64,000 nt of DNA, taken from NCBI RefSeq assembly GCF_001542905.1, contig NZ_LOAJ01000001.1:1550001-1614000 (forward strand), written 5' to 3'. Source of the stretch: Halorubrum aethiopicum. Lineage in GTDB: Archaea; Halobacteriota; Halobacteria; Halobacteriales; Haloferacaceae. The translations under genes and the position numbers were made by a program. Numbering within the stretch: position 1 is the first letter of the stretch; the number at the start of each line of letters is the position of its first letter. The notes under the pieces are model-generated. The model did no database searches. It was not told where the DNA came from and saw nothing but the letters and a program-made list of their open reading frames with translations. Shown piece by piece: positions 16,762 to 29,402 of this stretch.

Positions 16762-17484
16762 TCAGCCGTCCAGTTCGGCGAGATCCGCCGGCGTGTCCAC
16801 GTCCGCGGTGACGCCGGGGTCGTCGACGGCGACGAGCGCCGACCGGTCGCTTCCGAGGAGAACCGCCCGCCCGCCGACGTCCCCCTCTACCCCGCGGAGG
16901 TCGTCGAAGTGCCGGCGGGCGAACAGGACGGGGTTCCCCCGTCGCCCGTCGTGTGCGGCGGCGAGCGCGTCGCCGACTCCCGCGCCGTGAGCCGCGAGCA
17001 GGGCCTCGACCGTCTCCGGAGAGACGGACGGCATGTCGCCCGGCAGGAAGACGGCCGCGTCCGCGTCGGTCCTCGCGACCGCCTCGACGCCGGCCCGTAC
17101 CGAGGTCGACTGTCCCCGCTCGTAGGTCGGGTTCTCGACGAACCGCACGTCGAGGTCCGCGAGCGCCGACCGCACCCGGTCCGCCTCGTGTCCGAGGACG
17201 ACGACGATGTCGAGGCCGGCCGCGAGCAGCGTCTCGGCGGCGTGGCGGACCACCGGCTTCCCGTCGAGGTCCGCGAGCAGTTTGTTCGCGTCGCCGTACC
17301 GACTGCTCGTGCCGGCGGCCAGGAGGACGCCGGCGACGGCTGGACGGTCGGCGCTCGTGCGGTCGATCGCGTCGGCGTCGACGGTCGGGAGGCCGGTCGC
17401 GTCGGTCGTTCGATCCGTCGCCGTCCGATCCTCCGTCATCCGATCCTCCGTCATCCGATCCGCCGCCGTCCGGTCTCCCGTCAT
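16762..17484 (-). CDS. mocA: MocA-type molybdopterin nucleotidyltransferase
   Basis: 240 aa. Likely CTP (or GTP) transferase that adds a nucleotide to molybdopterin, giving the cytosine dinucleotide form used by CO-dehydrogenase and xanthine-dehydrogenase type enzymes. Motifs: LAAGTSSRYG (55-64), NK at 67-68, and the Mg-binding LPGDMPS with Asp150. The first 45 residues are low complexity, with the repeat DRMTEDRMTEDR encoded by near-identical 15-bp units. The real start may therefore be near VAGVLLAAG. The ATG overlaps the moeA stop. Context (moeA upstream, cox cluster divergent) favours MocA over MobA. Confidence 0.8.
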   Translation of the reverse strand: MTGDRTAADRMTEDRMTEDRTATDRTTDATGLPTVDADAIDRTSADRPAVAGVLLAAGTSSRYGDANKLLADLDGKPVVRHAAETLLAAGLDIVVVLGHEADRVRSALADLDVRFVENPTYERGQSTSVRAGVEAVARTDADAAVFLPGDMPSVSPETVEALLAAHGAGVGDALAAAHDGRRGNPVLFARRHFDDLRGVEGDVGGRAVLLGSDRSALVAVDDPGVTADVDTPADLAELDG

Positions 17485-18671
17485 TCGAGCACCTCGTAGG
17501 GCCGAACCGCCACCGGCTCGCCGGCGACCAGCGGCTCCGTCGTCAGCGCCAGCCCGTCGGCGCGCGCGACGCGCGTGCTCGAGGCCACGCGTCCCGGGGC
17601 GAACGTCCCGCGGTAGAGGTCTCCTGCCGAGGATCCCTGCCCCGCCGGGTCCGCCCGGCCGTCCGTCAGGTCGACGGGGATCGCGTACTCGAGGTCGGCG
17701 GCCGGCAGGTCGAGGTCGACCGCGGCGGTCGCCCGGACGGTCGGCTCCGACTCGCGCGCCGCGAACGCCGGCGCGACGAGGAGGACCGCGGCGGTGTGGG
17801 CGGCGAGCGGCTTTCCGGGGAGCGCACAGACGAGCGTCCCGTCGACGACCGCGGCCGTCGTCGGCCGGCCGGGCCTGAGGTCGACCGCCGAAAACGCCCG
17901 GTCGTGGTCGGCCAGCGCGCGGTCGACGTGGTCCCCGCGGCCGACGCTCGTTCCCCCCGACGTGAGCACGAGGTCGTGGGCGGCGGCGGCCGACCGGATC
18001 GCCTCGCGCACCCGCGTCCCGTCGTCGGGGACCGGCTCCAGGATCGCGGGGTCGCCGCCCCATCCCCGGACGAGGTTGGCGAGGGCCTCGGAGTCGCGGT
18101 CCGGCTGGACGCCCTCGCATATCTCCGTGCCCGTCGCGAGGATCCCGACGCTCGGGCGGGGCCGAACCGGCACGCGCTCGATCCCCACGTCGCGGAGGAA
18201 CGCGGCGTGTCGCGGGGCGAGGCGGTCGCCGGGGGCGAACAGTCGCTCGCCGGCCCTCGCGGTCGCCCCGGCTGGGTACCGGTTCGTCCCCGGCTCGATC
18301 GGCGGGCCGGCCAGCCGGTCGTCGCGGAGCGTCGCGTCCTCTCGGGGAAGGACGGCGTCGGCGCGCGCCGGGAGCGGTGCCCCGGTCGCGACGCGGACGG
18401 CCTCCCCCGGCCCGACCGTCGGCGCCTCGTCGGCCGGCCCCGCGCGGTCGACGACCTCGAGCGGGTAGCCGTCGCCCGCCGCGAACGCGAACCCGTCCAT
18501 CGTCGCGAAGTCGGTGGCCGGGACGTCGGCGGGGGCCGCGACCGGCTCCGCCGCGACGCGCCCGGCGATCGAGTCGAGCGGGACGCGCTCTGCGGTCCCC
18601 TCCGGGACGACCGCCGCCGTCCGGTCGCGGAGCAGTTCGACGGCGGCCGACCGCGTGACGGCCCGTGTCAT
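17481..18671 (-). CDS. moeA: Molybdopterin molybdenumtransferase, MoeA family
   Basis: 396 aa. Inserts molybdate (or tungstate) into adenylated molybdopterin. Motifs: DFATMDGFAF (54-63, the substrate-binding loop), ATGTEI (179-184) and SGGTSVGRGDHVD (238-250) of the MoCF-binding domain, then a C-terminal beta domain with ALPGKPLAAHTAAVLLV. ATG 18671 was chosen because a box A (GCGTTATCCG on the minus strand) is centred 26 nt upstream and family alignment begins there; the longer frame runs into non-homologous sequence. Operon with mocA, divergent from cox genes, suggests dedicated cofactor supply for those enzymes (inference). Confidence 0.9.
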   Translation of the reverse strand: MTRAVTRSAAVELLRDRTAAVVPEGTAERVPLDSIAGRVAAEPVAAPADVPATDFATMDGFAFAAGDGYPLEVVDRAGPADEAPTVGPGEAVRVATGAPLPARADAVLPREDATLRDDRLAGPPIEPGTNRYPAGATARAGERLFAPGDRLAPRHAAFLRDVGIERVPVRPRPSVGILATGTEICEGVQPDRDSEALANLVRGWGGDPAILEPVPDDGTRVREAIRSAAAAHDLVLTSGGTSVGRGDHVDRALADHDRAFSAVDLRPGRPTTAAVVDGTLVCALPGKPLAAHTAAVLLVAPAFAARESEPTVRATAAVDLDLPAADLEYAIPVDLTDGRADPAGQGSSAGDLYRGTFAPGRVASSTRVARADGLALTTEPLVAGEPVAVRPYEVLE

Positions 18672-18777: not shown

Positions 18778-18787
18778 TGTTTAAACA
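18778..18787. promoter_or_regulatory. Perfect palindrome TGTTTAAACA, candidate operator
   Basis: A perfect 10-bp palindrome in the divergent moeA/cox interval, ending 10 bp before the cox box A. Placement suits a regulator acting on the cox promoter, but the only evidence is symmetry and position. Confidence 0.35.
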
Positions 18788-18797
18788 GTGAAAACGC

Positions 18798-18806
18798 TTT
18801 TAATAA
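18798..18806 (+). promoter_or_regulatory. Box A promoter of the cox-like operon
   Basis: TTTTAATAA, centre 18802. The predicted start of transcription is near 18828, exactly the ATG of a 10-codon ORF and 33 nt before coxG. Confidence 0.6.
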
Positions 18807-18827
18807 TTCGAGCGCCTCGTTATCACG

Positions 18828-18860
18828 ATGCACGGAATATCCACGCGCGGGGTGGCCTGA
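18828..18860 (+). CDS. Putative leaderless 10-aa upstream ORF before coxG
   Basis: ATG at 18828 starts MHGISTRGVA and stops at 18858-18860, directly before the coxG ATG at 18861. The ATG lies 26 nt from the centre of box A, so a leaderless mRNA would begin with this ORF. A G-rich stretch (GGGGTGG, 18849-18855) inside it could act as a ribosome-binding site for coxG. Translation of this peptide could couple to coxG by termination and reinitiation. Not proven to be translated; chance occurrence is possible. Confidence 0.4.
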   Translation: MHGISTRGVA

Positions 18861-19508
18861 ATGGAGTTCGGCGGCACCTTCGAACTCGAGGACACCACGA
18901 TAGACGAGGTGTGGCTCGCGCTCTCCGACCCGGCGCTTATCGCCGACGCGCTCCCCGGCTGTGAGTTCCTCCTCCACGTCGAAGAGGACGACGTCGACTT
19001 CGACGAGCTGGCCGATCGGGCGGCGTCGCTCGACCGCGAACCGACAGCCGACCCGGCGGTCATCGCCGAACGCGCCTTCCGGGAGGGCGAGCGCTACGCG
19101 GCGCTCGTCCAGGTGAACGTCGGGCCGGTGAACCCGGCGTTCGAGACGGTCGTCGCCATCGACGAGCGCGCACAGCCGCACATGGCGGCGAGCGGCGAGG
19201 GCCAGTCCGGCGACAGCTCCTTCGAGATGTCCTCGGCGATGACGCTCACCGAGGTCGACGACGGCGTCGGCGTCGAGTGGGAGGTCGAGGCCGACGTGTT
19301 CGGGAAGGTCGCGGGGATGGGCCAACGCGTCATCAACCCGGTCGCGAACCGGCTCGTCAAGCGGTTCTTCTCGGACGTCCAGTCCGAGCTCCGCGAGCGA
19401 CAGCTCGACGACGTGGACGACCTCGAGGGGGCGGACGCGAGCGAGGGCGAGGAGGACGACGGCATCGTCGATCGACTGCTCGGACGCTCGGGAGGGAACT
19501 CCTCATGA
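18861..19508 (+). CDS. coxG: CoxG-family SRPBCC protein
   Basis: 215 aa. CoxG/SRPBCC fold protein, in bacteria linked to membrane anchoring of CO dehydrogenase or to quinone delivery. The N-terminus MEFGGTFELEDTTIDEVWLALSDPALIADALPGCE is split here into its parts: a first strand, the helix VWLALSDPALIADALPGC and the family's typical PGC. A helical C-terminal segment AGMGQRVINPVANRLVKRFF follows, then an acidic tail ending DRLLGR. An insertion DFDELADRAASLDRE precedes the second strand pair. ATGA overlap with coxS. First gene of the cluster, which also carries large, small and FAD subunits. Confidence 0.85.
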   Translation: MEFGGTFELEDTTIDEVWLALSDPALIADALPGCEFLLHVEEDDVDFDELADRAASLDREPTADPAVIAERAFREGERYAALVQVNVGPVNPAFETVVAIDERAQPHMAASGEGQSGDSSFEMSSAMTLTEVDDGVGVEWEVEADVFGKVAGMGQRVINPVANRLVKRFFSDVQSELRERQLDDVDDLEGADASEGEEDDGIVDRLLGRSGGNSS

Positions 19509-20035
19509 CGGAACACGACATCACGCTGACGGTCAACGGCACGGAACACGAACTCACGGTGGAGTCGCGGACGCTGCTCGCGCACGCGCTCCGCGACGAG
19601 CTCGGCTACACGGGGACGAACATCGGCTGTGAGAGCAGCCTCTGTGGCGCGTGTACCGTCCACCTCGACGGCGACGCGGTGAAGTCCTGTACCGTCCTCG
19701 CGGTCCAGGCCGACGGTGCCGAGGTCGACACGGTCGAGGGGCTCGATACGGGCGGCGAGTTCCACCCGATCCAGGAGGCGTTCCAGGAGGAACACGGCCT
19801 CCAGTGCGGCTACTGTACGCCGGGGATGATGATGACCGCGGTCGACTTCCTCTCGGAGAACCCCGACCCCTCGCGCGAGGAGATCCGCGAGGGGTTGGAG
19901 GGGAACCTCTGTCGGTGTACCGGCTACCAGAACATCGTCAACGCCGTCGAGAGCGCGGCCGAGAAGATGAACACGGGCGCGGTTGCCGACGGCGGCGAGG
20001 TGCGGTGGCCCGACGAGGGGGGTGAGGGGGAATGA
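19505..20035 (+). CDS. coxS: Molybdenum hydroxylase small subunit, [2Fe-2S]
   Basis: 176 aa. Iron-sulfur subunit of a xanthine-oxidase-family hydroxylase. The plant-type [2Fe-2S] motif is CESSLCGACTVHLDG with a fourth Cys in VKSC; the second cluster is QCGYCTPGMMMT with LCRCTGYQNIV. It passes electrons from the Mo site to FAD. ATG overlaps the coxG stop and its end overlaps the large subunit (ATGA). The about 15-residue C-terminal acidic extension is slightly longer than in bacterial CoxS. Confidence 0.93.
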   Translation: MTEHDITLTVNGTEHELTVESRTLLAHALRDELGYTGTNIGCESSLCGACTVHLDGDAVKSCTVLAVQADGAEVDTVEGLDTGGEFHPIQEAFQEEHGLQCGYCTPGMMMTAVDFLSENPDPSREEIREGLEGNLCRCTGYQNIVNAVESAAEKMNTGAVADGGEVRWPDEGGEGE

Positions 20036-22527
20036 CCGTCGACTCGGTGGATCCCGACGACGTGAGCGCGGCCGACATCCTCGGGTCGGCCATCGAGCGC
20101 CGCGAGGACCCCGCACTCGTCACCGGCGACGCGGAGTACACCGACGACGTCCGGCTCCCCGACACCGCACACGCCGCCATGGTACGGAGCCGGTACGGCC
20201 ACGCGCGGATCGAGGGGATCGACACGAGCGAGGCCGAGGCGATGGACGGCGTCGTGACGGTCGTCACCCACGAGGACCTCGCGAGCGAGGACACGCCCGG
20301 CGAGGCGCCGTTCCTGCTCCCGGTGGGGTGGCTGCTCGACAGCCTGAACCAGGTCGACCACCCGATCCTCGCGAGCGACCGGGTCCGCTACCAGGGCGAC
20401 GCCGTCGCGGTCGTCGTCGCGGAGGAGCGGTACCAGGCGCACGACGCCGCCGGCGCGGTCGACGTCGACTACGAGCGGCTCGACGCGGTGACCGACCCCG
20501 ACGAGGCGCTCGCCGACGACGCGCCGCGGCTCCACGACGACGCCGCGGGAAACGTCGCGTTCGACTGGGAGATCGGCGACGAGGCGAAGACCGCGGAGGC
20601 GTTCGAGTCGGCCAGCCACACCGCGAGCATCGAGCTCGAGAACCAGCTGCTCATCCCGAACGCGATGGAGCCGCGCGCCGCGGTGGCCGACTACCACCCC
20701 GGCAGCGACGAGCTGGAGGTGTTCATGACGAGCCAGAACCCGCACCTCCACCGGCTGCTCATGTCCGGCGTCATCGACCACCCAGAACACAAGCTCCGCG
20801 TCAAGGCTCCGGACGTCGGCGGCGGGTTCGGGAGCAAGATCCACCACTACGCGGACGAGGCGCTCGTCGCCTGGCTGGCGAAACACCTCGAACGCCCGGT
20901 CAAGTGGACCGCGACGCGTTCGGAGACGTATCTGACGGACGCGCCCGGTCGCGGCCACGACACCGACGCCGAGATCGCGATGGACGACGACGGCACCATC
21001 GTGGGACTGCGGGTCGACACCCGCGCGAACCTCGGGTCGTACCTGTCGACGTTCGCGCCGGCGGTGCCCACCTACCTCTACGGGACGCTCCTCTCCGGCC
21101 AGTACGACGTCCCCGCGATCCACGCGCACGTGACCGGCGCGTTCACGAACGTGCCGCCGGTCGACGCCTACCGCGGGGCGGGGCGGCCGGAGGCGTCGTT
21201 CCTCGTCGAGCGGCTGGTCCACCTCGGCGCGCGCGAGATGGGGATGGACCCCGTCGAGTTCCGGCGGCGGAACTTCGTTCCCGACGACGCGTTCCCCTAC
21301 GAGACGGAGGTCGCGGTGGTGTACGACAGTGGCGAGTACGGGAAGCCGATGGACGAGGCGCTCGATCTCCTCGACTACGACGCGTTCCGCGAGCGCCAGC
21401 GCGCGGCCCGCGAGGAGGGGCGGTACCTCGGGATCGGCTTCTCCTGTTACATCGAGGCGTGCGGGCTCGCCCCCTCGGAACTCGCCGGCCAGCTCGGCGC
21501 GCAGGCCGGGCTCTGGGAGTCGAGTCTCGTCCGATTCCACCCCTCGGGGACGGTCACGGCGTTCTGTGGCACCTCCGGGCACGGGCAGGGCCACGCGACG
21601 ACGTACGCGCAGATCGTCGCCAACGAGCTCGGGATCCCCTACGACGACGTCGAGATCGTCGAGGGCGACACCGACGAGATCCCCCACGGGATGGGGACGT
21701 ACGGCTCCCGCTCGGCCGCGGTCGGCGGGAGCTCGCTCGTCAAGAGCGCGCGGAAGGTGGTCGAGAAGGCCACGCGGGTCGCGGCCCACCGGCTGGAGGC
21801 CGACCCGGACGACGTCGAGTTCGCGGACGGCGAGTTCCACGTCGCGGGCGCGCCGGACCGCTCGATCGGGATCGCCGAGGTCGCCCAGCAGGCGTACCTG
21901 GCCCACGACATCCCCGACGGGATGGAGCCGGGCCTCGAGGCGACCTCCTTCTACGACCCCGACAACTTCGTGTTCCCGTTCGGGACCCACGCCGCAGTCG
22001 TGGAGGTGGATCCGGAGTCGGGCGAGCTCGAGATCGAGCGGTACGTCGCGGTCGACGACGTCGGGAACCAGATCAACCCGAAGATCGTCGAGGGGCAGAT
22101 CCACGGCGGCGTCGCCCAGGGCGTCGGGCAGGCGATCTACGAGGCGGCCGAGTACGACGACAACGGCACCCTCGTCACGGGCTCGATGCAGGACTACACG
22201 GTCCCGAAGGCCGAACACGTCCCCGAGATGGAGACCGCGTCGACGGTGACGCCGTCGCCGCACAACCCGCTGGGCGTGAAGGGCGTCGGCGAGGCGGGGA
22301 CGATCGCCGCGCCGCAGGCGATCGTCAACGCCGTCTCGGACGCGCTCGCGCCCTTCGGCGTCGACGGCGTGGCGATGCCGGTCACGCCGGAGCGCGTCTG
22401 GCGGGCGGTCGAGGGGAGCGCCGCGACGGACGGCGGAACGGCCGGAGACGACGGCGGGACGGCCGCGACCGACGGCGATCACGTCCCGACCGACGGAACC
22501 GGCGACGGCCGCGGGGGTGATCGCTGA
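20032..22527 (+). CDS. coxL: Molybdenum hydroxylase large subunit, CoxL form II
   Basis: 831 aa. Catalytic Mo-pterin-cytosine-dinucleotide subunit. The active-site loop is AYRGAGR (379-385), the form II signature; true aerobic CO dehydrogenases (form I) have AYxCSFR. The catalytic Glu region GVKGVGEAGT is present near the C-terminus. Regions [10 protein letters not shown] and GHGQGHATTYAQI bind the cofactor. A low-complexity Asp/Gly/Thr tail of about 40 residues follows. Substrate could be a purine, aldehyde, nicotinate-like compound or, less likely, CO. Operon position between S and M subunits. A paralogue lies at 27030-29402. Confidence 0.92.
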   Translation: MTVDSVDPDDVSAADILGSAIERREDPALVTGDAEYTDDVRLPDTAHAAMVRSRYGHARIEGIDTSEAEAMDGVVTVVTHEDLASEDTPGEAPFLLPVGWLLDSLNQVDHPILASDRVRYQGDAVAVVVAEERYQAHDAAGAVDVDYERLDAVTDPDEALADDAPRLHDDAAGNVAFDWEIGDEAKTAEAFESASHTASIELENQLLIPNAMEPRAAVADYHPGSDELEVFMTSQNPHLHRLLMSGVIDHPEHKLRVKAPDVGGGFGSKIHHYADEALVAWLAKHLERPVKWTATRSETYLTDAPGRGHDTDAEIAMDDDGTIVGLRVDTRANLGSYLSTFAPAVPTYLYGTLLSGQYDVPAIHAHVTGAFTNVPPVDAYRGAGRPEASFLVERLVHLGAREMGMDPVEFRRRNFVPDDAFPYETEVAVVYDSGEYGKPMDEALDLLDYDAFRERQRAAREEGRYLGIGFSCYIEACGLAPSELAGQLGAQAGLWESSLVRFHPSGTVTAFCGTSGHGQGHATTYAQIVANELGIPYDDVEIVEGDTDEIPHGMGTYGSRSAAVGGSSLVKSARKVVEKATRVAAHRLEADPDDVEFADGEFHVAGAPDRSIGIAEVAQQAYLAHDIPDGMEPGLEATSFYDPDNFVFPFGTHAAVVEVDPESGELEIERYVAVDDVGNQINPKIVEGQIHGGVAQGVGQAIYEAAEYDDNGTLVTGSMQDYTVPKAEHVPEMETASTVTPSPHNPLGVKGVGEAGTIAAPQAIVNAVSDALAPFGVDGVAMPVTPERVWRAVEGSAATDGGTAGDDGGTAATDGDHVPTDGTGDGRGGDR

Positions 22528-23414
22528 TGTACCCCGACGAGTTCGACTACCACGAGGCGGGAAGCGTCGACGAGGCGCTGGAGCTGCTCGGCGACCACGC
22601 GGGCGAGGAGGTGGAGCTGCTCGCCGGGGGCCACAGCCTGCTGCCGGCGATGAAGACGGGGCTCTCGAGCCCGGACGTGCTGATCGACGTGGGCGGCATC
22701 GACCGGCTCCACGGCGTCTCCGTCGAGGACGACGCGCTCGTCGTCGGCGCGATGACCCGGTACAGCGACTTCCTCGACGCCGAGGCGGCCCACGAGCACG
22801 CGCCCGCGTTCGCCGCGGCCGTGGGGGCGGTCGGCGACGAGCAGGTGCGCAACCGTGGCACCGTCGGCGGCAACCTCGCGCACGCGGACCCCGCGTCGGA
22901 CCTGCCCGGCGCGGCGCTCGCCTCCGACGCGACGGTCGTCGTCGAGGGGCCGGACGGCGAGCGGTCGGTCCCGGCCGAGGAGTTCTTCTTCGGGATGTAC
23001 GCGACGGCGCTCGGGCCCGACGAGATCCTGACGCGCGTCGAGATCCCGTCGGCGACCGACGCGGTCGGGACGTACGCGAAGCGCGCGTCGACCTCCTCCG
23101 GCTACGCGGTCGTCGGCGTCGCGGTCCTCCTCGAGACCGACGGCGAGACCGTGGCCTCGGCGCGGATCGGGGCGAACGGCGTGATGGACCACGGGGTCCG
23201 GCTCGACGCCGCGGAGGAGGCGCTCGTCGATGAATCCCTCGACGAGGCGGCGATCGAGGCCGCGGGCGAGGCGGCACCGGAGACGCTCGACAGCGCGATG
23301 GTGATGGACGACCTCCAGGCGTCGGCCGAGTTCCGCGAGCAGACGCTCCGCGTGTACACGAAGCGGGCGCTCCGGGACCTCCGGGAGGCCGACGCGACGG
23401 TCGCGGCGGACTGA
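22527..23414 (+). CDS. coxM: Molybdenum hydroxylase FAD subunit
   Basis: 295 aa. FAD-binding medium subunit that takes electrons from the [2Fe-2S] clusters. FAD motifs: AGGHSLLPAMK and RNRGTVGGNLAHADPASD, both canonical. A C-terminal CO-dehydrogenase flavoprotein-type domain follows (about 175-290). Start and previous stop share one base (TGATG). Completes the L-M-S set, so an intact heterotrimer can be made from this operon. Confidence 0.93.
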   Translation: MYPDEFDYHEAGSVDEALELLGDHAGEEVELLAGGHSLLPAMKTGLSSPDVLIDVGGIDRLHGVSVEDDALVVGAMTRYSDFLDAEAAHEHAPAFAAAVGAVGDEQVRNRGTVGGNLAHADPASDLPGAALASDATVVVEGPDGERSVPAEEFFFGMYATALGPDEILTRVEIPSATDAVGTYAKRASTSSGYAVVGVAVLLETDGETVASARIGANGVMDHGVRLDAAEEALVDESLDEAAIEAAGEAAPETLDSAMVMDDLQASAEFREQTLRVYTKRALRDLREADATVAAD

Positions 23415-23448
23415 TGTGTCGCGAACGACTACCCGCCCTCGTGAGACG

Positions 23449-24369
23449 ATGACCGAGGGACGACCGACCGCGTTCGCCGACCTGACGGAGGCCGAGCTCC
23501 GCGACGCCCTCGACCGGGAGGAGTACGTCGCCGACGACGACGTGGTGACGACCGTCCTCCTGGCGTTGCGGCTTGGGAAGCCGCTCCTCGTCGAGGGGGA
23601 GCCGGGCGCGGGGAAGACGGAGCTCGCGAAGGTCCTCGCCGACGGCTTCGGGACCGAGCTCGTCCGCCTCCAGTGTTACGAGGGGCTCACCGCCGAGAAC
23701 GCGCTGTACGAGTGGAACTACACGAAACAGCTGCTCGCCGTCCAGTCGGGAACGGACGACGGGTCGGTGTTCACGGAGGAGTACCTCCTCGAACGACCGC
23801 TGCTCCGGGCGCTCCGCGGCGGGGGCGAGCGGCCGCCGGTGCTGCTCGTCGACGAGGTCGACCGCGCCGACGAGGCGTTCGAGGCGCTGCTTCTTGAGGT
23901 CCTGAGCGACCACCAGGTTTCGATCCCCGAGTACGGCACCGTCGCCGCCGAGACCCCGCCCGTCGTCGTCCTCACGTCGAACCGGACGCGCGCGCTGAGC
24001 GACGCGTTGAAGCGTCGCTGTCTCTACCTCCACGTCTCGCCGCCCTCCTTCGAGAAGGAGCGGGAGATACTCGCCCGGAAGGTGCCCGAACTCGACGGCG
24101 CGATCGCGGCCGAGCTCTGCGCGATGGCGGAGCGCGTGCGCGAGGAGCCGCTGCGGAAGCCGCCGGGCGCGGCCGAGACCATCGACTGGGCGCGCGCGGT
24201 CGCGACGCTCCGCCGCGAGGGGGAGCCGGCGTCGCTCTCGCCCGCGGAGGTGCGCGAGACGATCGGCTGCCTGTTGAAGGAGGTCGAGGACGTCCGCCGC
24301 GTCGACGACGACCTCCTCGAGGCGCTCGTCGAGGCGGCCGAGTCAGCCCGGGCGGAGGTGACCTCGTGA
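23449..24369 (+). CDS. coxD: MoxR-type AAA+ ATPase (CoxD-like)
   Basis: 306 aa. AAA+ ATPase of the MoxR family; bacterial CoxD assists assembly of the Mo-Cu site, and here probably matures the hydroxylase. Walker A GEPGAGKT, Walker B VLLVDEVDRAD, sensor LTSNRTRALSDALKRRCLY. I chose ATG 23449 over GTG 23416 since the conserved region begins soon after and the extra residues look random. Overlaps the VWA gene (GTGA), a usual MoxR-VWA pairing. Confidence 0.88.
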   Translation: MTEGRPTAFADLTEAELRDALDREEYVADDDVVTTVLLALRLGKPLLVEGEPGAGKTELAKVLADGFGTELVRLQCYEGLTAENALYEWNYTKQLLAVQSGTDDGSVFTEEYLLERPLLRALRGGGERPPVLLVDEVDRADEAFEALLLEVLSDHQVSIPEYGTVAAETPPVVVLTSNRTRALSDALKRRCLYLHVSPPSFEKEREILARKVPELDGAIAAELCAMAERVREEPLRKPPGAAETIDWARAVATLRREGEPASLSPAEVRETIGCLLKEVEDVRRVDDDLLEALVEAAESARAEVTS

Positions 24370-25715
24370 CCGACCCGGTCGCGGGCTCCGATCCGCCGCC
24401 GTTCGCCGAGGTCCGCGACTTCGTCCGCGAGGAGGTCGTGCGGTTCGTGCGGTCGCTCAGACATGCCGGCGTCGCCGTCCCGGCGAACGCGGGGGTGACG
24501 GCCGCGCGGGCGCTCGTCGAGGTCGGGTTCGACGACGAGACGCGCGCCCGCGCCGCCCTGCGGGCGTGTCTCGTCGCCGACCCAGACGACGCGGCGACGT
24601 TCGACCGGCAGTTTCCGGAGTTCTGGCGGCGACTGACAGCCGGGCTCTCGCTCTCCGGCCCGGCCCCGCGGGACTCCGACGGACCCGAGGGCGCGCTCGC
24701 CCCGCTCGGAGCCGATCCCTCGGCGGAGCCGCCCGGGACGACGCCGGACGACGGCGGCGACGGCTCGGCGGACGACGGCAGCGACGGGGCGGCGGACTCC
24801 CGGACCGCGACCGAGCGCGCGCTCGTCGGGTCGGGTCTCGACGGCGACGACGGGGAGGAGGGCGGAGAGGACGACGACCTCGCGGCGGCGTGGTACAGCC
24901 CGGTCGGTCAGGCCTCGGAGGTGACCGGGATCGAGGGCGGACGAGGCGGCCTCGTCGGATCGCTCGAGGAGGCGTTCTCGACGCTGACGCCGGCGCTTCA
25001 CAGCCTCCGCGGGCGGCGGTGGCGCGGCGACGGCGACGAGCGCGCGGACGTCCGGCGGGCGCTGCGGGCGAGCTTCGGGACCGGGGGGACCGTCCTCTCG
25101 GTCCCGCGGACGGAGCGCCGCCTCGCGGACGTCCGCGCGCTCTGGTTCGTCGACGTCAGCCGCTCTGTCCTCGAGACGGTCGACCGGACGCTGCTGCTCG
25201 CGACGCTCCAGTACGCCCGCTCCGCGTGGCGCGACTGCCGGATCGTCCTCTTCGACGAGGACGCCAGGGAGGTCACGGACGCCTTCGGCGAGCCGACGCC
25301 GTCGGCCGCGCTCGCGGCGCTGGAGCGCGCGGAGACGGAGTGGGGCGGAGGGACCCGGATCGGCGGGTCGCTGGCGTCGTTTCACCGGACCACGCCCGAC
25401 GCGGTCGACCGCCGAACCGTCGTCTTCGTCGTCAGCGACGGCCTCGAGATGGGCGACGTCGGGGAGCTCGAAGCGGAGCTCGCGTGGCTCTCGGCGCGGG
25501 CGCGCGGCGTCGTCTGGCTCAACCCGCTCGCGGCCGCGCCGGCGTACGAGCCGACGGCCGCGGGGATGGCGAGCGCGCTCCCGTTCCTCGACGGGCTCTT
25601 CGCGTTCGCCGCCCCGGCCGACCTCGCGGAGGTCGGCCGACAGCTCGCGCGGAACGGCCTCGGCGGTCGGATCGGCTACGAGTACGACCCGCGGCGCGAC
25701 CGCGCATCCGCCTGA
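24366..25715 (+). CDS. coxE: VWA-domain protein (CoxE-like)
   Basis: 449 aa, GTG start overlapping the coxD stop. Partner of the MoxR ATPase; helps metal-cofactor maturation in the cox system. An N-terminal helical domain (about 10-95) precedes a long acidic low-complexity linker (about 100-165). The VWA domain (about 240-420) has the MIDAS motif DVSRS in WFVDVSRSVL, then WGGGTRIGGSL and VVSDGLEMGD. It matches the DUF58/CoxE type. Last gene before a repeat-rich gap. Confidence 0.85.
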   Translation: MTDPVAGSDPPPFAEVRDFVREEVVRFVRSLRHAGVAVPANAGVTAARALVEVGFDDETRARAALRACLVADPDDAATFDRQFPEFWRRLTAGLSLSGPAPRDSDGPEGALAPLGADPSAEPPGTTPDDGGDGSADDGSDGAADSRTATERALVGSGLDGDDGEEGGEDDDLAAAWYSPVGQASEVTGIEGGRGGLVGSLEEAFSTLTPALHSLRGRRWRGDGDERADVRRALRASFGTGGTVLSVPRTERRLADVRALWFVDVSRSVLETVDRTLLLATLQYARSAWRDCRIVLFDEDAREVTDAFGEPTPSAALAALERAETEWGGGTRIGGSLASFHRTTPDAVDRRTVVFVVSDGLEMGDVGELEAELAWLSARARGVVWLNPLAAAPAYEPTAAGMASALPFLDGLFAFAAPADLAEVGRQLARNGLGGRIGYEYDPRRDRASA

Positions 25716-25843: not shown

Positions 25844-26980
25844 ATGAGCACGAACGACTGGAGCACGCCGGAAACGAACGTCTTCGACCGGATCGCGGCC
25901 GCCGTGGAGGGTGGCGACGACGCCGTGTTGGCCACCGTGGTCGACGTCGAGGGGAGCGCCTACCGCCGTCCCGGCGCGAAGATGCTCATCACCCCCGACG
26001 GCGGCGGGGCCGGGAGCATCACCGCCGGCTGCCTCGAGGACGAGGTGCGGGAGCTCGCCGCGGACGTCCTCGACCGGGGCGAGCCGCGCGTCGAGACCTG
26101 GGACCTGATGAACGACGAGGACGACGTCTGGGGAATGGGCGTCGGCTGTAACGGCGTCATCACGGTGCTCCTCGAACCGCTCGGCGAGTCGTACCGTCCG
26201 GTGACCGAGGCCTACGACCGAGGGGAGTCGGTCGGCGTCGTCACCGTCCTCGGCGGGGACGGCCCGCCGGTCGGCACGCGGAGCGTCCGACGGCCCGGAG
26301 GCGGCTTCGCGGGCGACCTCCCGGACTCGCTCGCGGAGGCCGTCGCCGACGAGGTCGACCGGCTCGTCGCCGCCGGCGAGAGCGACGCGGTCGCGGTCGA
26401 GCGCGACGGCGGGCGCGTCGAACTGTTCGTCGACGGGATCGAGCCCCCGCCGGAGCTCGTCGTCTTCGGCTCCGGCCACGACGTGGGGCCGGTCGCGGAG
26501 CTGGCGACGCTCGCCGACTTCCGCGTGACGGTCGTCTCCTTCCGGGGCCTCCACGCGGACGAGGAGCGGTTCGCGGCGGCCGACGAGGTCGTCTCGGCGT
26601 CGCCGGGCGAGGTGGCCGACCTGCGCGAGTGGGACGCGGAGACGTACGCCGTCGTCATGACCCACAACTTCGTGGACGACCGGCTCGCGCTGGACGCGCT
26701 GCTCTCGACGCCCGTCCCGTACGTCGGCGTGATGGGGCCGCGAAAGCGGTTCGCGGAGATGCGCGAGCGGTTCAGAGAGGAGGGCCGGGAGTTCGACGAC
26801 GCGGAGCTCGACCGGGTGTACACGCCGATCGGGTTGAACCTCGGCGGCGACACGCCCTACCGGATCGCCTGTAGCATCGTCACCGAGGTCCTCGCGGTCG
26901 CGCACGACCGCTCGCCGGGCCACCTCCGCGACCGCGACGAGCCGATCCACGACCGGGCGGAGACCCCCCCGTCCGGGTGA
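25844..26980 (+). CDS. XdhC/CoxF-family Mo-cofactor insertion protein
   Basis: 378 aa. XdhC-type protein that binds the Mo cofactor and helps sulfurate or insert it into hydroxylases. N-terminal XdhC/CoxI domain (about 15-125) with [28 protein letters not shown] and GCNGVI. C-terminal Rossmann domain (about 205-345) with [24 protein letters not shown] and [10 protein letters not shown], then PIGLNLGG. Same strand as the cox genes but after a 128-nt repeat gap; probably same regulon. No other Mo-hydroxylase maturation gene of this type is seen. Confidence 0.9.
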
Positions 26981-27029: not shown

Positions 27030-29402
27030 CTACCGCTCCGCCTCCCGCACGGCCTTCCAGACCGTCTCGGGCGTGAGCGGCATGTCGATCGACTCGACGC
27101 CGAAGGGCGCGAGCGCGTCGACGACCGCGTTGACGACGGCGGGGGGCGCGGCGATCGCGCCCGCCTCGCCGACCCCCTTCGCCCCCAGCGGGTTGTGGGG
27201 GCTCGGCGTCACCGTCGAGTCCCACTCGACGTCCGGCAGGTGTTCGGCCTTCGGGACGGCGTAGTCCTGTAGCGAGCCCGTGATCAGGGTGCCGTTGTCG
27301 TCGTAGACGGCCTCCTCGTAGATCGCCTGGCCGATCCCTTGGGCGATCCCGCCGTGGATCTGTCCCTCCACGATCTTCGGGTTGATCTGGGTGCCCACGT
27401 CGTCGACGGCGACGTACCGCTCTATCTCGATCTCGCCGACCTCGGGGTCGACCTCCACGACCGCGACGTGGCTCCCGAACGGGAACGTGTAGTTCGCGGG
27501 ATCGAACGACGTCTCGGCGTCGAGTCCGGGCTCCGCGTCCTCGGGGAGGTACGCCTCGTCGTGTGCGAGCGCCGCGACCTCCCGGATCGTCACGCTCCGG
27601 CTCGGGACGCCGCTGAGGAAGAACTCGCCGTCCGCGAACTCCACGTCGCGCTCATCCGCCTCGAGCCGGTTCGCGGCGACCGACCGCGCCTGCTCGCGAA
27701 CCTTCCGCGCGCTCTCCTCGAGCGCGCCGCCGCCGACCGGCATCCCCCGGCTGCCCGCGGTGCCGTTCCCCTCCTCGATCTCGGCGGTGTCGCCCTCGAT
27801 CACCTCGACGTCCTCGAACGGGACGCCGAGCGCGTTCGCGACGATCTGCGTGTAGCCCGTCCGGTGGCCGGTCCCGATCTCGGCCGTGCCGGCCTTGACG
27901 AGCACCGTCCCCGACTCGTCGACGCTGACTATCCCGGACTCCGGCATCCCCGGCGCGGCACCGCAGGCCTCGACGTAACAGGAGAGGCCGACCCCGAGGT
28001 AGCGTCCCTCCTCGCGGGCCTCTCGCTGGCGCTCGCGGAACGCGTCGTAGCCGACCGTCTCGAGGGCCCGACTCAGCGTCCCGTCGTACTCGCCGGAGTC
28101 GTAGGTGCGGCCGAGCCCCGTCTCGTAGGGGAACGCCTCCGGCGGGATGAAGTTCCGACGCCGGAACTCGGCGGGGTCGAGGTCGACCGCGCGGGCCGCG
28201 ACGTCGACGAGCCGCTCGATGAAGTACGTCGCCTCCGGGCGGCCCGCCCCGCGGTACGCCGACAGCGGGGCCGTGTTCGTGAACGCGCCCCGTGTGTGGA
28301 CGTACGCCCCCTCGACGCGGTACTGGCCGTTCGCCATCACGCCGAGGTTCGTCGGGACGCCCGACCCGCCGGGCGCGAGGTGGCCGCCGACGGGTACCGT
28401 CGTGTCCGCGCGGAACCCCCGGAGCGTCCCGTCGTCGTCGACGCCCGCCTCCGCCCGGACGAGGTGGTGGCGCGCGTGGATCATCGACAGGAAGTCCTCC
28501 GTCCGCGGCGCGACCCACTTCACCGGCCGGTCCAGCTCGCGCGCACACCACCCCGCCAGCAGGTGGCCGGTGTAGGGGAACAGCTTCGCGCCGAACCCGC
28601 CGCCGACGTCGGGGGGGCGGACGCGGATCCGGTCTTCCGCCATGCCGAGCGTCTCCGCGAGGTCCGAACGCACCTGGTGGGGGTTCTGCGTCGACATCTC
28701 GACGTGGAGCTCGTCGCCGGGCAGCGAGCGCGCCACGGCGGCTCTCGGCTCCATCGCCGTCGGGATCACTCGGTTTATCTCCAGTTCCAACGGGACCACG
28801 TTGTCGGCGGCCTCGAGGGCGGCCTCCGCCGCCTCGGCGTCGCCCGTGTCCCACTCGAAGGCGACGTTGTCCGGGCTCGTCTCGTGGATCGTCGGCGCGT
28901 CCCCGCTCAACGCCTCGTCCGGGTCGACGACCGCGTCCAGCCGCTCGTACTCGACGTCGACGGCGTCGAGCGCGTCGTGGACGACGTAGCGGTCCTCGGC
29001 GACGACCGCCGCGACGGGTTGGCCCTGGTAGGTGACGTGGTCGTCCGCCAGCATCGGGTGGTCCGGGGCGACCGCGCCCGTCTCCGTGTCCGACTCGGCC
29101 GACCCCTCCTCGGGATCGTCCGTCCGGAGGAGCCCCGGCGCGTCGGACGCCTCGAGGTCCGCCCAGGTGTACACCCCGAAGACCCCGTCCATCGCCGCGG
29201 CCGCGGCCGTCTCGACCCCCTCGATCCGGGCGTGTCCGTACCGACTCCCGAGGAGCCCGAGGTGGGCCTCCTCCGGGTACTGGATGTCGTCGGTGTACTC
29301 CGCGTCGCCCGTGATGAGGTGCGGGTCCTCCCGCCGCTGGACCGCGGAGCCGACCAGGTCGCTCGGCCTCGCGTCGCCGCCCTCGATGGTCTCGAATGTC
29401 AT
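27030..29402 (-). CDS. Second molybdenum hydroxylase large subunit, form II, solitary
   Basis: 790 aa. Paralogue of the large subunit at 20032-22527: [39 protein letters not shown] and [11 protein letters not shown] are nearly shared. The active-site loop is again AYRGAGR (382-388). It stands alone and convergent to the xdhC-like gene, without its own S or M subunits, so it may use those of the cox-like operon or be encoded with partners elsewhere (inference). Start ATG 29402 has GGAGAG on its mRNA just upstream, inside a hairpin. Substrate unknown. Confidence 0.9.

Follow-up and report, generated by a model that had tools for sequence, protein, structure and literature searches.

Mini-ORFs that abut the start of coxG are a conserved feature of leaders in two branches of haloarchaeal CO-dehydrogenase-type operons, referred to here as clades 2 and 3, and this conserved arrangement is a better finding than the copy in the window (the whole 64,000-nucleotide stretch of DNA that was analysed), which belongs to a separate branch, clade 1. 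The conservation in the two other branches suggests that ribosomes reach coxG by termination and restart. As to whether the mini-ORF of the window is itself functional, we regard the case as evenly balanced; it is a plausible, unconserved example.

A mini-ORF flush with coxG in the window

The window mini-ORF (18828..18860, forward strand) consists of ten codons and a stop, ATG CAC GGA ATA TCC ACG CGC GGG GTG GCC TGA, encoding MHGISTRGVA. Its TGA (18858-18860) lies directly 5′ of the coxG ATG at 18861, at a distance of 0. Re-reading of the sequence confirmed each of these elements, as well as the upstream box TTTTAATAA, as an earlier sequence-only reading had described them. A point absent from that reading is that the mini-ORF and coxG share a reading frame and are divided by the TGA alone. 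The coxG gene (18861..19508, forward strand; PF06240, E 5e-15) begins with the residues MEF, a start common to its orthologs. Within the mini-ORF, 5 nt 5′ of the coxG ATG, is a weak Shine-Dalgarno (SD)-like motif, GGGGTGG (18849..18855, forward strand), which matches the SD core exactly over 4 nt only; many orthologs possess strong SD motifs at the corresponding place.

The genes that follow on the same strand are coxS (19505-20035), a form-II-type coxL with the motif AYRGAGR (20032-22527), coxM (22527-23414), and genes for a MoxR AAA ATPase (23416-24369), a CoxE-like VWA protein (24366-25715) and XdhC (25844-26980). Overlaps of 4 nt join coxG to coxS, coxS to coxL and the MoxR gene to the CoxE-like gene, and a 1-nt overlap joins coxL to coxM, so that the operon appears made for reinitiation; the TGA/ATG junction of the mini-ORF is an upstream extension of this series. 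A moeA-like gene (17481..18671, reverse strand) is the divergent neighbour, with an intergenic region of 189 nt between. Convergent to the cox operon is a gene for a second Mo-hydroxylase large subunit (27030-29402, reverse strand), whose product has the same domain make-up as that of coxL (20032-22527).

Transcription most likely begins on or beside the mini-ORF ATG rather than at the coxG ATG, according to a promoter model trained on 277 genes without SD motifs from 654 kb of the window's own genome, in which a T-rich box starts 30-31 nt 5′ of leaderless ATGs. With 5.35 bits, the ATG at 18828 ranked within the top 1.3% of the 8014 ATGs scored and exceeded about 80% of the genes used for training; the coxG ATG at 18861 scored -5.0 bits. 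The TATA-type box predicted to serve the mini-ORF/coxG transcript, TTTTAATAA (18798..18806, forward strand), is centred at 18802, 26 nt 5′ of the A of the mini-ORF ATG. The earlier placement of the transcript start on the short frame, which had been argued from geometry, is supported by the model. The description of the mini-ORF as leaderless was favoured by the same scores, but it is a prediction, and an alternative TATA-like box, GTTTAAACA (18779..18787, forward strand), would put the start ~19 nt 5′ of the mini-ORF ATG, making a 52-nt leader possible.

Taken alone, the window copy is suggestive rather than decisive. When the body of the mini-ORF was subjected to dinucleotide shuffling with the ATG at 18828 given, the frame ended between -6 and +4 of coxG in 12.5% of cases and exactly at 0 in 9.2%; shuffling of the whole leader gave 6.5%, and 11.8% when its last 16 nt were retained. 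The window copy may thus have arisen by chance, at about 12% given the ATG. In a 654-kb part of this single genome, with genes called by a simple script, an abutting ORF of 8-20 codons preceded 18 of the 399 genes that have a free 60-nt upstream region, and in two of these 18 cases, the window's and one other, a strong leaderless-type promoter fell on the mini-ORF ATG. The combination of abutting ORF and strong promoter is uncommon (about 0.5%) and not unique. When the genus was searched at the DNA level for a near relative sharing this leader, the only matches were to coxG coding sequence or were short and chance-like.

Leaders of the window's own clade

About 970 genomes of the order supplied the CoxG orthologs, which were arranged on a protein tree; a scan of genome contigs yielded one relative. 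Clustering of the leaders by gapped identity was dropped when unrelated leaders were found to be merged. Clade 1 offers little conservation of the mini-ORF. An abutting frame is present in 4/36 leaders (the window, L032, L003 and L004), it forms the majority state in none of the five lineages, and the remaining 32 leaders lack the feature, many of them, in many species, having no upstream ATG whatever. Even among the nearest relatives, L002, L003 and L004, the ATG near the predicted transcript start occupies three different frames, and the idea that the 10-codon ORF is kept in the nearest orthologs was accordingly rejected. Conservation of the short ORF, the absence of which the sequence-only reading had itself named as refuting its claim, thus fails in the window's clade, where the mini-ORF link would be dispensable and sporadic. 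L004 also has an in-frame, open ATG 42 nt 5′ of coxG, near its predicted transcript start, from which CoxG would gain 14 residues at its N-terminus.

SD motifs of at least 5 nt occur in 20/29 leaders of clade 2 and 18/36 of clade 1, relative to 52/399 genome controls. In H. volcanii, SD motifs fail to drive de novo initiation when they lie in 5′-UTRs, but are often an aid to reinitiation (PMC3986360, PMC6728339). The frequency of SD-like motifs before coxG, a first gene, fits reinitiation in clade 2. Clade 1 leaders, however, have such motifs too, without having the mini-ORF. Strong SD motifs (AGGAGGTGA, GAGGTGA) precede the first gene in, for instance, L005 and L033-L035 of clade 1, with no abutting mini-ORF, an odd circumstance given the reported non-use of 5′-UTR SD motifs in H. 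volcanii.

Abutting frames in clades 2 and 3

The claim that a mini-ORF abuts coxG, although not sustained as a conserved trait in clade 1, holds for clades 2 and 3. Clade 2 denotes the lineages branching outside clade 1, from L095 to L012, together with L176/L177, and is not monophyletic. It covers many genera, the window's own among them with three members (L012, L013 and L016), and has a form-II-type coxL where checked (AYRGAGR in L298 and L299). An ORF of 8-20 codons ending between -6 and +4 of coxG was found in 25/29 of its leaders and in 10/12 lineages, relative to genome controls of 4.5% for all genes and 11.5% for SD-led genes; on the latter rate P is about 2e-8, a value that is descriptive, as clade 2 was delimited after the data had been inspected. 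In the gapped-identity clustering, the raw counts of other open-frame triplets had been comparable to those of ATG, and ATG enrichment was therefore retested in the reading frame terminating at the junction, where ATG made up 12/114 codons versus 8/301 (P 0.002). Where the box is clear, clade 2 transcripts are predicted to start 4-15 nt 5′ of the mini-ORF. A locus added later, L278, also fits the pattern and is the sole further positive; families f5 and f6, used as a hold-out, supplied no new clade 2 locus. With its ATG start, ten codons and end at 0, the window copy has the geometry of the mini-ORFs of clades 2 and 3 (ATG-initiated, 8-20 codons, ending at -6 to +4).

Clade 3 differs in its gene order (coxG, coxM, coxS) and has a coxL with the motif VAYRCSFR, that of form I CO dehydrogenase, in both of the members examined (L297 and L300). 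Its leaders mostly contain two tandem mini-ORFs, located about 41-76 nt 5′ of coxG in L108-L119, L178, L126, L235, L236, L259-L277 and L280, and an abutting frame was present in 33/40 anchored leaders; because part of this set was collected once earlier leaders had already revealed the pattern, it amounts to a partial check. The first frame, uORF1, reads M[HLP]I[VG]xxYKR followed by a TGA that overlaps the ATG of uORF2 (ATGA). The second, uORF2, is 14-23 codons long, and its end lies at +1 (TGATG, TAATG or TAGTG) or +4 (ATGA) relative to coxG; ends at 0, +1 or +4 are found in nearly all clade 3 members bar one genus. Ends at +4 are weak evidence alone, because ATGA itself provides the stop and shuffles of leaders whose coxG starts with ATGA give an expectation of 0.75-1.0. 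The positions at which uORF2 starts, -41, -44, -47, -50, -53, -56, -59 and -68, differ by multiples of 3 and thus share a residue class; if indels were random, eight lengths would agree in this way with a probability of about 5e-4 ((1/3)^7, with exceptions ignored). The exceptions are -51 (the sister species L114/L115) and -45 (L280), and in both the stop lies exactly at 0. The pattern also has its losses and variants: it is largely gone from one genus (L022-L029, L262), in L138 and L030 a single, longer frame ends at -4 or +1, and a few early-branching loci (L139, L162 and L019-L021) are without the leader motif.

That motif, GTATGCNCATAG....TATAAAAGATG, corresponds to uORF1 when read in codons, and a search of 125 genomes found its 33-base version at 18 places, all of them 5′ of coxG (control 0). 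The clade 3 mini-ORF is predicted to begin about 4-15 nt into the transcript, and a TTTATT-type box keeps a distance of 41-43 nt to the first ATG in most members. The candidacy of TATAAAAG as the clade 3 TATA box is doubted, since in L274 (G337) it ends directly 5′ of the coxG ATGATG. The last 29 nt 5′ of coxG in that locus are without uORF2, and uORF1 itself runs 1 nt into the coxG start, which argues for a coding role of TATAAAAG there rather than that of a TATA box.

A palindrome-like element (CATAGTG, CACAGTAG, TACTGTCACGGTA) recurs near the predicted coxG transcript start in all three clades, for example at about -80 to -57 relative to coxG in L010, about -80 to -62 in L108 and about -62 to -52 in L005. 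In the window no more than part of it can be recognised (AACAGTGA). The element is perhaps the operator of a regulator common to clades 1-3.

Proposed loading of ribosomes onto coxG

In the mechanism that we propose for the window, a ribosome would enter at the mini-ORF ATG (18828) by leaderless initiation, as the promoter geometry implies, terminate at the TGA (18858) and reinitiate one codon later at the coxG ATG (18861), with weak help from the internal GGGGTGG; through the observed 4-nt and 1-nt overlaps, the downstream genes may continue the relay. The peptide sequence is probably unimportant, and position and length would be what matters. Termination-reinitiation is proven in Haloferax, where overlapping gene pairs are coupled and an overlap or very short gap is needed (PMC6728339, PMC10666635), and the TGA of the window, abutting the ATG at 18861, has the stop/start adjacency of such pairs. 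For three H. volcanii gene pairs, a gap of 13-14 nt clearly lowers reinitiation and one of 22-23 nt (nearly) abolishes it, and for reinitiation in E. coli the final 15 nt of the upstream gene are enough (PMC10666635). The spacing of 0 in the window is therefore within the range that allows reinitiation in H. volcanii. The earlier proposal that coxG is reached by reinitiation thus gains from promoter geometry and from a reinitiation-competent spacing, and loses from the want of mini-ORF conservation in its own clade. We consider it an even question whether the window mini-ORF is the first link of a termination-reinitiation relay that is sporadic in clade 1 and conserved in clades 2 and 3. Slightly less confidence, falling just short of even, attaches to the broader proposal that the 5′-terminal mini-ORFs of haloarchaeal cox operons are obligatory ribosome-loading adaptors for coxG, tandem in form I, and frames whose one product of consequence is the ribosome they hand on, with the window mini-ORF as a sporadic leaderless version.

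The window copy may instead be a chance ORF, in which case a 33-nt leader would serve the direct translation of coxG, and the ATG at the start site and the abutting TGA would both be coincidental, an explanation to which we give considerable weight while leaning against it. It would account for the scarcity of the mini-ORF in clade 1 (4/36), the varying frame among the nearest relatives and the many clade 1 leaders without any upstream ATG, and the junction has a probability of 9-12.5% given the ATG. On the other hand, coincidence leaves a strong promoter score exactly on the ATG at 18828 and the conservation of the same arrangement in other clades to be explained, and, as 72% of the protein-coding transcripts of H. 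volcanii are leaderless (PMC4983044), one would expect ribosomes to be captured by an AUG at the 5′ end. The in-frame relationship of the mini-ORF to coxG and the upstream ATG of L004, open into the gene, would be in keeping with an N-terminal extension of CoxG that has been broken by the TGA through recent mutation, sequencing error or readthrough; CoxG orthologs nevertheless align from MEF/MNF, and their leaders are mostly unalignable with frequent in-frame stops, which makes such an extension very improbable.

A regulated leader peptide, as raised in the sequence-only reading, is not supported; on such a view, ribosome stalling or the strength of coupling in the mini-ORF would respond to a cue, for instance Mo cofactor, CO or an amino acid. 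The leaders do precede Mo-hydroxylase operons, and the uORF1 peptide M[HLP]I[VG]xxYKR of clade 3 is conserved. Constraint on DNA can explain that conservation, though, since the DNA encoding uORF1 coincides in part with a probable operator or promoter-like motif; the window peptide is without counterpart, and the peptides of clades 1 and 2 are unconserved between genera. A riboswitch or attenuator at the window is likewise unsupported: the Rfam search of its leader gave just rydB (E 0.47; 16.4 bits, where the gathering score is 50), so that no RNA family was recognised, and its folding z-score was -0.3. We consider a regulatory peptide very improbable.

Because haloarchaea mostly initiate at leaderless AUGs and H. 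volcanii ignores SD motifs in 5′-UTRs, the recruitment of ribosomes by leadered transcripts is an issue. If termination and restart on the mini-ORF are as we propose, a conserved mini-ORF joining a short leader to the first gene would constitute a concrete recruitment route, and CO oxidation in hypersaline habitats would be subject to one more level of control. The idea is suited to the reporter systems that already exist for Haloferax. A literature search conducted mostly outside subscription journals found no paper on a conserved coxG-abutting mini-ORF.

Among known systems, attenuation leader peptides of the trp type share with the window a short leader frame, in the window one that is predicted to be translated, before a metabolic operon, although the window is without a noted run of regulatory codons or unusual folding. 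The small ORFs of long 5′-UTRs in H. volcanii (Babski 2016, PMC4983044) also lie within haloarchaeal leaders; they have 15-31 codons in leaders of 150-250 nt, shorter leaders fall outside that analysis, and the section consulted gives no junction rule. Bacterial leader genes (Korolev 2016, PMC4833913) are similar in being short frames near the start of a structural gene whose peptide is thought irrelevant; they differ in being bacterial, in representing a bioinformatic hypothesis of expression raised by reinitiation, and in a spacing that peaks at 10-11 bp in Actinobacteria, compared with the overlap or 0-6 nt found here. The overlapping gene pairs of H. volcanii (Huber 2019, PMC6728339; 2023, PMC10666635) resemble the cox leaders in their overlapping or adjacent stop and start, their haloarchaeal host, the frequent SD-like motif in the upstream frame and the coupling expected from geometry. 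In those pairs, however, the upstream partner is a normal gene, whereas here it is a 5′-proximal frame of 9-23 codons with no evident protein function.
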